Assembly: GCA_021809525.1 (NCBI GenBank)
Contig: JAKAYU010000009.1
Coordinates: 1 to 39,000, forward strand
Reading direction: 5' to 3'
Origin: Pseudomonadota bacterium
GTDB taxonomy: Bacteria > Pseudomonadota > Gammaproteobacteria > Steroidobacterales > Steroidobacteraceae
DNA: 39,000 nucleotides
Part shown: positions 22,092 to 39,000 of the stretch, piece after piece
How positions within the stretch are numbered: the first letter of the stretch is position 1
Layout of the letters: every line of letters begins with the position of its first letter
Translations under genes and position numbers: made by a program
Notes under the pieces: model-generated
What the model was told of the DNA's origin: nothing
Seen by the model: only the letters and a program-made list of their open reading frames with translations
The model's database searches: none

Positions 22092-23015
22092 GTGAACAGC
22101 CTCTCGGAACTGACCAGCTTCGCGCCTGTCACGTGGCGCCGTTATCTGGAGCTGACCAAGCCTCGCATCGTCGCGCTCATCACCTTCACGGCGCTGGTCG
22201 GCACGCTGCTCTCGAGTCCGGGCTGGCCGCCGCTGCGCGCTCTGGTGTGGGGCACGCTCGGCATCGCGCTCGCTGCGGCCTGCGCGGCGGCCATCAATCA
22301 TGTACTCGACCGGCGCATCGATGAGCAGATGTCGCGCACCCGCTCACGCCCGCTGCCGCGCGGCCAGCTGACCGAGCGCAGCGCGCTGCTGTTCGCCGGG
22401 GCGCTCGGCCTGCTCGCCATGACGATCCTGTCGTTCCTGGTCAATCCGCTGACCGCGGTGCTGACGTTCGTCTCGCTGATCGGCTACGCGGTGATCTATA
22501 CCGTCTGGCTGAAGCGCGCCACGCCGCAGAACATCGTGATCGGGGGGGCGGCGGGCGCGGCGCCGCCGGTGCTTGGCTGGGCCGCCGTGACCAACACCAT
22601 CGATCCGCACGCACTGTTGCTGTTCTTGATCATTTTCGTGTGGACCCCGCCGCATTTCTGGTCGCTCGCCATCGCGCGCAAGGACGAGTACGCGCGCGTC
22701 GGGATCCCGATGCTGCCGGTGACGCACGGGATCGAATACACACGGCTGCAGATCCTGCTGTATTCGGTGCTGCTCACAGTGGTGACGCTGCTGCCGTTCA
22801 TCACCGGCATGAGCGGCCTGATCTATCTCGCCGCGGCGCTCGCGCTCGGGGCGCGGTTTCTCTATTACGCCGCGCGCCTCCAGTTCGCGCCACGGCCGCA
22901 CCTGCCGATGCGGCTGTTCCGCTACTCGATCAGCTATCTGATGTGGCTGTTCGCGGCGCTGCTGCTCGATCACTATCTGCCGACGACCCAGTTGCTGGCG
23001 CTGGCTCGCGGGTAA
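22092..23015 (+). CDS. ctaB: Protoheme IX farnesyltransferase (heme O synthase)
   Basis: YLELTKPRIVALITFTALVGTLL, AACAAAINHVLDRRIDEQMSRTRSRPLPRGQL, YTVWLKRATPQNIVIGGAAGAAPPVLGWAAVT; GTG start. Confidence 0.95.
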   Translation: MNSLSELTSFAPVTWRRYLELTKPRIVALITFTALVGTLLSSPGWPPLRALVWGTLGIALAAACAAAINHVLDRRIDEQMSRTRSRPLPRGQLTERSALLFAGALGLLAMTILSFLVNPLTAVLTFVSLIGYAVIYTVWLKRATPQNIVIGGAAGAAPPVLGWAAVTNTIDPHALLLFLIIFVWTPPHFWSLAIARKDEYARVGIPMLPVTHGIEYTRLQILLYSVLLTVVTLLPFITGMSGLIYLAAALALGARFLYYAARLQFAPRPHLPMRLFRYSISYLMWLFAALLLDHYLPTTQLLALARG

Positions 23016-23436
23016 GCAGAATCTCCCACGAGGAGAGGCGCCGGGCCTCGAGCAGCAGCACACCGGAGGCCTGATAGTGGTCGGCGTCGACCCGGCCGTA
23101 ATGCTCCGCGCCGTGATAGCCGGCCGCCCCGCAGCTGTACACCGACAGGATGCACCGCTCGAGCACCGAGAAGGTGCCCTGCACCTTGCCGAGCGTGGCG
23201 TTCTCCGAGGTCCAGCGCAGGCAGCCGCCTTTTTTGGCCGGTGGCTCGATGGAGTAGGCGTTGCGGAACTCGACCGGCGGGGAGCCCAGCACCTTCAGCG
23301 AGCCGGCAACGAGCCAGCACTCGTCCTGGTGGGCCACCTCGGTGCGGCATTCCGCCGGCAGTAGCTCGCCGTCCTCGCGCCAGAACGTCCCATTGCCGGT
23401 CCAGATCCCCGGCTGCAGCAGATAGGTGTGGATCAT
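22930..23436 (-). CDS. Uncharacterised small protein, possible calycin-like beta-barrel; translationally coupled to the LacI-type regulator
   Basis: 168-aa ORF whose start overlaps the upstream regulator stop by 4 bp (ATGA); N-terminal PGIWTGNGTFW (GxW) with alternating beta pattern; 3' end overlaps ctaB by 86 bp in convergent orientation. Confidence 0.6.
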   Translation of the reverse strand: MIHTYLLQPGIWTGNGTFWREDGELLPAECRTEVAHQDECWLVAGSLKVLGSPPVEFRNAYSIEPPAKKGGCLRWTSENATLGKVQGTFSVLERCILSVYSCGAAGYHGAEHYGRVDADHYQASGVLLLEARRLSSWEILLTREPAPATGSSADSDRAAAPRTATSDS

Positions 23437-24548
23437 GCCGGGCTCGCCGCCGCGCCGCCGCAGGACTCGCGCACGACCAGGCGCGGCGTGAGGATCATGC
23501 TCTCGGCCGGCCGCCCTTCGATCTGGTTGATCAGACTCTGTACCAGCGCCTCGCCGGCGCGTTTGGTGTCCTGGGAGACGGTGGTCAGCGACGGCCGGGT
23601 GAGCGCGCCCATCGGAATGCCATCGAATCCCACCACAGCCACGTCCTCGGGGATCCGGCGGCCCGCGGCCGTGAGCGCGCCCATCGCGCCGATGGCGATC
23701 AGATCGCTGGCGGCGAACACCGCATCGAATTCCCGGCCGCGCTCGAGCAGTGCGCCCAGCGCGGCACGGCCCGAGACCTCGGTCGACACCGCACTCGCCT
23801 GCAGCCGCGGATCAGGCTCCAGCCCGGCGGCGAGCAGGGTGTCGTGGTAGCCGCGATAGCGGTCCGCCATCTCCGGCGCCGACGGCGCGATCTCGCCGAT
23901 GAAGGCAATGCGGCGGCGGCCCAGCCGCACCAGGTGCTCCGCGGCGAGGCGTCCGCCGGCGAGGTTGTCACAGCCGATCGAGACGCCCGGATGATCGGGC
24001 AACACCTGTCCCCAGCGCACCAGATGCGCCCCGTGCGCGATGAGCGCCTCGAGCCGGCTGCGGTAGGCGAGGTAGTCGCCGTAACCGAGCAGAATGATCC
24101 CATCGGCCTTGTGGCTGTCCTCGTAGTCGGCCAGCCAGTCGCGCAGCAGATCCTGGAAGGACACCAGCAGGTCGTATCCCTGGCGCGAGCAGGCCCGGAT
24201 CATCGAGCCGAGCATGGAGTGAAAGAACGGGTTGATTGCCGAGTCGTCTGTGGTCGGATCCTCGAAAAACAGCAACGCCAGGGTCCCCGTCTGCTTGCGC
24301 CGCAGGCTCGAGGCGTTCTTGTCTACGTGGTAGTTGAGTTGGCGGGCGACTTCGAGAATGCGCTCGCGGGTGGCCGCCGAGACCATGGGGTCTGCGCGCA
24401 AGGCGCGGGAAACCGTCGACTGGGATACGCCCGCCATGTGGGCGATGTCGAGCGAATTGGCCTTGTGGCGCTTGTCACGCACGCGCAACGCCTCCGCCGG
24501 GGGCGGCGTACCCTCGCGTTGCGCCTCGGCCGATTGTGCATCGCGCAT
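23433..24548 (-). CDS. LacI/GalR-family transcriptional regulator
   Basis: HTH KANSLDIAHMAGVSQSTVSRALRADPMVSAATRERILEVARQLNYHVDKNASSLRRKQTGTLALLF; periplasmic-binding-like ligand domain VVGFDGIPMGALTRPSLTTVSQD; start chosen at ATG 24548 (ORF extends to 24593). Confidence 0.93.
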   Translation of the reverse strand: MRDAQSAEAQREGTPPPAEALRVRDKRHKANSLDIAHMAGVSQSTVSRALRADPMVSAATRERILEVARQLNYHVDKNASSLRRKQTGTLALLFFEDPTTDDSAINPFFHSMLGSMIRACSRQGYDLLVSFQDLLRDWLADYEDSHKADGIILLGYGDYLAYRSRLEALIAHGAHLVRWGQVLPDHPGVSIGCDNLAGGRLAAEHLVRLGRRRIAFIGEIAPSAPEMADRYRGYHDTLLAAGLEPDPRLQASAVSTEVSGRAALGALLERGREFDAVFAASDLIAIGAMGALTAAGRRIPEDVAVVGFDGIPMGALTRPSLTTVSQDTKRAGEALVQSLINQIEGRPAESMILTPRLVVRESCGGAAASPA

Positions 24549-24607
24549 CTGGATTCGCACGGCCCATTGGCCGCCCCCCTCACCTCGAACCACCTCGTCC
24601 GGAGCCT

Positions 24608-24635
24608 AGTCTAAGTCATGCGCGCGTCGGTCCAA
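24608..24635 (-). promoter_or_regulatory. Candidate sigma70-type promoter for the LacI-type regulator (TTGGAC-16 bp-TAGACT)
   Basis: Reverse-strand -35 TTGGAC (24635..24630) and -10 TAGACT (24613..24608), upstream of 24548. Confidence 0.45.
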
Positions 24636-37969: not shown

Positions 37970-37982
37970 AATCGCGAGCCAC

Positions 37983-38033
37983 CTCCCGGGTTGCCGCCGT
38001 GCCGGTCCCCCTCCGGCGGCGGCGACCCGGGAG
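37983..38033 (+). terminator. Strong intergenic hairpin between the two GH13 paralogs (17-bp stem with one G-U), no U-tract
   Basis: CTCCCGGGTTGCCGCCG ... CGGCGGCGACCCGGGAG; arms 37983..37999 and 38017..38033. Confidence 0.6.
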
Positions 38034-38103
38034 CCGGGCCGCCCGGTGAACCGTGTGCGCACAGGCGCGGGATGGACCGTTTGGACTGAGGAGTGAGAGT
38101 GCA

Positions 38104-39000
38104 ATGACCCAGTCGATTGATCGAGGAGCGTCGCTGCTGCGCGCGATGTCGTTGATTTCCGTTCTGATGGCGACGGTGCTGCTGTCGGCCTGCGGCGGAG
38201 CCGCGCGCAGCTCGCCGCCGGCAACGGCCGGGTCGACCACGACTTCGCCACCGGCTATCAACACGGCCGATCTGTTCTCCGACCAAGGCTCGATGTACGA
38301 CAGTAACGTCCAGCCGAGCCCGAGCGATCCGGTCACGGTCACCTTGAGGACCGGGCACGATAACGTCAGCAGTGCCAATATCGACTACTACGACACCGCC
38401 GACGGGGCATTCCACTACGTGCAGATGCACATTGCCTCGACCGATCCTACCGGGAACTTCGACTACTGGCAGGGCACGATTCCGGCGAGCGCGTCGGAGA
38501 AATATTACCGCTTCGAGGTCAGCAACGGGTCCGAGACGCTCTGGTACAACGCCGATGGCGTGAGCGCGACCGAGCCGAGTTCGGGGGATTTCTTCATCAT
38601 CCCGGGATTCGACACGCCGGACTGGATGAAAAACGGCGTGATGTACGAGATCTTCGTCGATCGGTTCTTCGACGGCAACCCGAACAACGATGTCACCACC
38701 GGGCAATATACCTATGCGGGCTGTGCGACGGAGCAGCACGCCTGGGGGAGCAGCGTCTATGCGACCACGCCCGGCTGCAATGCGGAGGTGTTCTTCGGCG
38801 GCGACCTGGCCGGCATCGACCAGAAGCTCAGTTACATCAAGCAGACCCTCGGGGCGAACATTCTGTATCTGACCCCCATCTTCGAGGCGCCCTCGAACCA
38901 CAAGTACGACACGGCCGACTACTACAAGGTCGATCCGGGGTTCGGCACGGCGGCGGATCTGGAGCAGTTGATCCAGGACGTGCACAGCAGCGCGAAGATC
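38104..39000 (+). CDS. GH13 enzyme, copy 2, predicted lipoprotein (truncated by window end)
   Basis: Lipobox [55 protein letters not shown]...[51 protein letters not shown] parallels copy 1. Confidence 0.9.

Follow-up and report, generated by a model that had tools for sequence, protein, structure and literature searches.

The window analysed here, a whole contig of 39,000 bases from a Steroidobacteraceae bacterium (JAKAYU010000009.1), ends in a maltodextrin (alpha-glucan) utilisation locus that carries two flavin-dependent halogenase (FDH) genes, HAL1 and HAL2, together with a TonB-dependent receptor (TBDR). We are highly confident of the locus and regulon assignment, with both halogenases as genuine regulon members; confidence in what they halogenate is much lower. 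The target is more likely to be something common to TBDR-based uptake than a starch aglycone.

In the proposed account, exported GH31 and two GH13 enzymes would cut alpha-glucan, the TBDR would import the resulting fragments, an unlinked sugar transporter of the major facilitator superfamily (MFS), preceded by an operator copy of its own, would probably move them inward, and a cytoplasmic GH13 would complete breakdown. HAL1 is probably on the TBDR transcript, and HAL2 would be read from a divergent operator-bearing promoter. Both enzymes are most likely cytosolic, catalytically competent and probably brominating, and would draw their reduced flavin from a reductase whose gene lies elsewhere. 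Their substrate is probably an indole or phenol group on something larger than free tryptophan; candidates are a not yet exported envelope polypeptide (the receptor itself or a different one) and a shared indole metabolite. Taken as a whole, from locus and regulon to a halogenase target in TBDR-based uptake, this account is judged evenly balanced between right and wrong.

Operators, regulon and locus type

An earlier reading of the window, called here the original prediction, had placed a LacI regulator, a GH13, a TBDR, two halogenases, a GH31 and two further GH13 genes in this region. All were recovered by open reading frame (ORF) calling and profile searches (Table 1). Starts were refined using codon score, orthologue alignment and inspection. 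The TBDR scores 415.5 bits against TIGR01782, above the curated cut-off of 310, and its GTG start precedes a signal-like segment in an ORF open from 26466. No signal peptide is apparent in the cytoplasmic GH13 from its MSENRWW start. HAL1 begins 137 bp past the TBDR stop codon, and HAL1 and HAL2 are convergent with stop codons 12 bp apart.

An operator-like 15-mer, ATGAATACGTATGCG, lies at three places between GH13 and TBDR and at one before HAL2 and GH31, in agreement with the single motif that had been predicted for the divergent promoters. With up to 3 mismatches, the window holds 5 matches to ATGAATACGTATGCG against 0.42 expected from shuffles. The 3.57-Mb genome has no more than 10 sites with the core ATACGTAT[GT]: 4 belong to this locus, and 3 of the rest lie inside genes. 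On another contig (C222) a perfect operator-like palindrome precedes a PF00083 MFS sugar transporter. The operator site at C137 precedes genes reading as glycogen phosphorylase and glgC, the latter labelled glucose-1-phosphate adenylyltransferase by eye from its sequence. An intergenic ATACGTAT was found in 47 of 65 comparable MalA-like TBDR loci from Alpha- and Gammaproteobacteria, and its density across the 65 is 0.51/kb in intergenic versus 0.010/kb in coding DNA. The position before HAL2 is kept in syntenic loci L031, L032, L034, L035, L037, L038, L039 and L057. We infer that the LacI protein of the locus binds the 15-mer and regulates through it. Gene content, operators and synteny support the predicted LacI-controlled alpha-glucan locus with both halogenases included, and the shared operator disfavours control of the halogenases by an unrelated system.

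By its gene content the locus is of the MalA carbohydrate-utilisation (CUT) type, with probable MalR/LacI-type, operator-based control. A TBDR, alpha-glucan enzymes and a regulator stand together, and the operator is found on the TBDR and enzyme promoters and is kept in relatives. The MalA/XCC2469 CUT loci of Caulobacter and Xanthomonas likewise contain a TBDR, alpha-glucosidases or GH13-type enzymes, a regulator and a maltodextrin sugar transporter, and the XCC2469 TBDR is maltose-induced (PMC1790865). Similar loci were found in Caulobacter radicis (L084) and Xanthomonas (L103). Halogenases are absent from the text on the MalA/XCC2469 loci (PMC1790865), whereas the window has two conserved FDHs, one with its own operator. 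The label of an undescribed system was too strong for the whole, which is a maltodextrin CUT locus of known kind; the two-halogenase arm is the new part. A search of the open-access literature, with subscription papers and regulon databases outside it, found no description of FDH-TBDR linkage or of a two-halogenase locus. The recorded members of proteobacterial sugar regulons include tryptophan-halogenase genes. New here are the operator site ahead of HAL2, the division into two ancient clades, the invariant catalytic residues and the cargo-independent association with receptors.

Table 1. Genes and operator copies of the locus in the window
Feature	Position	Strand	Basis
Small conserved protein	22930..23436	-	No Pfam match; 3' of LacI
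LacI-family regulator, MalR-like by context	23433..24548	-	PF00356, PF13377; start by codon score
Cytoplasmic GH13 alpha-glucosidase-type enzyme	24700..26316	-	PF00128, 413 bits
Operator copy 1	26390..26404	-	1 mismatch to ATGAATACGTATGCG
Operator copy 2	26414..26428	-	Exact ATGAATACGTATGCG
Operator copy 3	26475..26489	+	Exact ATGAATACGTATGCG
TBDR, MalA-like	26643..29567	+	TIGR01782, PF07715, PF00593
HAL1, BrvH/Xcc4156-type FDH	29705..31213	+	PF04820, 613 bits
HAL2, second BrvH-type FDH	31226..32746	-	PF04820, 623 bits; ORF open to 32857
Operator copy 4	32911..32925	+	Exact ATGAATACGTATGCG; 165 bp before HAL2, 373 bp before GH31
Exported GH31 alpha-glucosidase-type enzyme	33298..35679	+	PF01055, PF21365, PF17137
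Exported GH13, maltodextrin glucosidase/cyclomaltodextrinase-like	35810..37969	+	PF00128, PF02903
GH13 lipoprotein-like, truncated at contig end (39000)	38104..39000	+	PF00128, PF02903

The halogenases and their linkage to receptors

HAL1 and HAL2 each have a full-length PF04820 match with GxGxxG, WxWxIP and the catalytic Lys and Glu. They fall in two separate clades, each with SH-aLRT of 99 (FastTree, IQ-TREE) and each with alpha- and gammaproteobacterial members. Judged from these trees, the clades are old and anciently separate. A recent tandem duplication giving HAL1 and HAL2 was considered and is ruled out by the separate clades. HAL1-clade genes mostly adjoin the TBDR of a maltose locus; most HAL2-clade genes share these loci but do not lie beside the receptor. 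Across 55 HAL1 and 26 HAL2 proteins, K79, E343, S344-T345, WQWRI and H96/F98/W442 are invariant. With roles taken from PrnA, RebH and BrvH (PMC5945002 and general knowledge), K79 and E343 are catalytic, S344-T345 is the halide site and H96/F98/W442 is the aromatic (indole) sandwich.

The closest PDB entries are 9luq, 6y1w (Xcc4156) and 6frl (BrvH) for HAL1, and 9luq, 6frl and 6y1w for HAL2, with high similarity across the full length. HAL2 aligns with 6frl without gaps through the substrate loop, where PrnA has extra residues, which gives a short loop without the free-tryptophan clamp. BrvH, Xcc4156 and 9luq share with HAL1 and HAL2 full-length similarity, a short open substrate loop and intact catalytic residues; compared with BrvH and Xcc4156, HAL1 and HAL2 come with a predicted regulon and a partner receptor. 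PrnA, RebH and PyrH share the fold family, GxGxxG, catalytic Lys and Glu, and indole sandwich. Their loop clamping the amino and carboxyl groups of free tryptophan is longer and is missing in HAL1 and HAL2, which, unlike them, stand outside any biosynthetic gene cluster. MibH, a peptide halogenase, and QhpG, a flavin protein-tryptophan oxygenase, are distant relatives acting on tryptophan inside polypeptides; the window locus differs in having no precursor peptide gene and in scoring far under the QhpG cut-off. BrvH slowly brominates indole, rejects free tryptophan and has an open substrate site, and was likened by its authors to MibH, which halogenates tryptophan within a peptide (PMC5945002). 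No flavin reductase is encoded in the locus, and the only PF01613 gene in the genome lies elsewhere, unlinked.

The order LacI-GH13-TBDR-HAL1><HAL2-GH31-GH13 is syntenic in congeners and also in a second genus of this family. Mean identity to orthologues in syntenic loci is 84% for LacI, 79% for HAL1, 78% for HAL2 and 63% for the TBDR. A close MalA-like TBDR is present in 25 of 148 genomes of the order, and an FDH directly adjoins it in 23; the two exceptions are one genome without an FDH (G014) and one with an FDH ~10 kb distant (G152). Conservation of the linkage had been named beforehand as a point on which the original prediction could fail, and in relatives it was looked for and found kept. 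Receptor and FDH are paired in named loci from Sphingomonas, Sphingopyxis, Caulobacter, Maricaulis, Rhodanobacter, Xanthomonas, Massilia and others. In this set, which was fished with HAL1 and so over-represents maltose loci, 47 of the 56 loci with at least 4 kb of flank on both sides have a TBDR within 1 kb of the FDH, and 52 have one within 5 kb. Where a TBDR is within 1 kb (60 loci), it is upstream and on the same strand in 52, with a median gap of 111 bp. The receptor of L175 was counted as FDH-linked, its FDH having been missed by the gene caller.

A check of two near-complete genomes, in which HAL1 was not the seed, put 9 of the 12 FDH clusters no more than 5 kb from a TIGR01782 TBDR, compared with a mean of 0.54 and a maximum of 5 over 20,000 random placements. 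Of the 29 TIGR01782 TBDRs in these genomes only 10 come with an FDH, which makes the FDH an accessory. The linkage spans Alpha-, Beta- and Gammaproteobacteria and extends to other cargoes. FDH and TBDR occur together with sucrose/raffinose enzymes (L040, a GH32/alpha-galactosidase locus holding a HAL2-clade member from the window's own genome), with GH3 for beta-glucan (L049), with FeoB-type iron transport genes (L047) and with SapC/Cupin_8 (L044, L050). Because FDHs stand beside TBDRs of unrelated cargo, their target would more likely belong to receptor-based uptake generally than be a starch aglycone.

Candidate targets and competing explanations

The original prediction had suggested that the substrate of the halogenases may be a compound associated with starch, or an aglycone set free from it or from a glycoside. 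Some cargo specialisation fits this, in that both clades are mostly in maltose loci, although sampling is biased to maltose. The sister FDHs in raffinose, beta-glucan and iron neighbourhoods, the HAL2-clade member in the GH32/alpha-galactosidase locus and the lack of aglycone-processing genes nearby speak against it, and we consider it improbable. A second suggestion, that halogenation was lost in favour of another flavin role such as a monooxygenase or a protein hydroxylase like QhpG, draws on weak NCBIfam similarity to that flavin monooxygenase and on FDH-like proteins without catalytic Lys or Glu beside other TBDRs. The QhpG profile (NF049967) gives only 30 and 28 bits where the cut-off is 240, and the halide-site S-T is invariant in all HAL1 and HAL2 members; invariant catalytic Lys, Glu and indole-sandwich residues in 81 of 81 proteins argue against loss, which is likewise improbable. 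A chance or hitchhiking neighbourhood without functional meaning would accommodate the loss of HAL2 in some relatives and the existence of FDH-free MalA-class loci. Linkage across three proteobacterial classes, the retained operator before HAL2 and a mean nonsynonymous divergence (dN) of 0.14 for HAL1 and 0.15 for HAL2, about half the 0.30 of the TBDR, leave it very improbable indeed.

Alternatively, the halogenases may produce a small halogenated indole or phenol (a signal, antibiotic or catabolite), or render one harmless, with sugar supply setting only the timing of its synthesis and the TBDR linkage reflecting co-regulation. BrvH does brominate free indole, the Xcc FDHs brominate screening substrates (PMC5945002, PMC7336383), and the indole sandwich H96/F98/W442 is invariant. 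Against this, biosynthetic neighbours are absent from the window locus, the linkage tracks the TBDR itself over many cargoes and three classes, and indole turnover by BrvH is slow at 2.5 mU/mg (PMC5945002). This explanation is rather unlikely.

A target common to TBDR-based uptake meets several difficulties of its own. No Trp, Tyr, His, Phe or Cys column of the TBDR alignment universally separates FDH-linked from FDH-free receptors, and no Trp or Tyr column tracks FDH presence, in a comparison where the FDH-free MalA-like set is tiny. A cytosolic FDH would have little time to modify a barrel that leaves through Sec. Congeneric loci L166, L167 and L168 keep HAL1 without HAL2, and MalA-class TBDRs without an FDH exist (G036, G014). 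FDH-TBDR paralogue pairs from a single genome do not match clearly, and much of the correlation between FDH and TBDR distances (Mantel 0.64 in maltose loci, 0.42 overall) is accounted for by shared ancestry. These points weigh against such a target. With no FDH-tracking tryptophan in the TBDR, the receptor is only one candidate substrate among others; with HAL2 missing in some congeners and MalA-class receptors free of FDH, the FDHs are not essential for uptake. Co-phylogeny of FDH and TBDR was rejected as evidence: it is positive overall, yet confounded, and weak among same-genome paralogues. A RiPP (ribosomally synthesised and post-translationally modified peptide) precursor was also rejected as substrate, there being no room for it between TBDR, HAL1 and HAL2.

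According to PMC7336383, no native substrate is known for BrvH or for the Xcc enzymes. For the role of this enzyme type, the locus supplies a predicted inducer (maltose or starch), an operator, a partner receptor and two paralogues of separate ancestry, in a layout also present in relatives of Caulobacter, Sphingomonas and Xanthomonas. Should a receptor be the target, halogenation would add a new level of control to nutrient uptake.

Companion and neighbouring genes

Other gene families recur with receptor-linked FDHs. All 7 Cupin_8 (JmjC-like) genes of the near-complete relatives G007 and G036 have an FDH within ~2 kb, SapC is a repeated member of the Cupin_8/FDH cassettes, and DUF6445 (PF20043) stands beside TBDR/FDH loci in 5 of 6 cases (L172:4783-5457; G006, G007, G036, G058). 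Tentatively, and as a rather unlikely proposal, BrvH-type FDHs with Cupin_8, SapC, DUF6445 and 2-oxoglutarate (2OG) oxygenase genes could form a receptor-linked oxidative modification kit in Proteobacteria that modifies TBDRs or exported partners post-translationally, the window being a maltose-specific version with two halogenases.

A TPR protein with a 2OG-Fe(II) oxygenase domain (L172:11717-13147) lies between an FDH and a second TBDR. FDH-like paralogues without the catalytic Lys and/or Glu were seen in L047, L091, L093, L124, L133, L135, L143, L145 and L149, where most form a tandem next to a TBDR with an FDH that appears intact, several of them with Cupin_8; these tandems are possible active/inactive halogenase pairs. 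CPA2-type cation/proton antiporter genes are directly beside FDHs at L060:14044-15303, L096:8748-10004, L048:5981-8664 and L094:18462-19715. In Rhodanobacter and Lysobacteraceae loci HAL2 overlaps the CPA2-type transporter gene by a few bases, as seen in L060 and L096.

Of the 10 core sites in the window's own genome, one on C169 (L052:4738) is a strong operator-like site, CGCATACGTATTCAG, ~0.4 kb before a small HU-like gene. Genes left of ~22930 in the window belong to other systems. Homologues of the small conserved protein adjoin LacI in three congeners (L034, L167, L168), and the end of its gene overlaps the end of a convergent UbiA-family gene (22092-23015).

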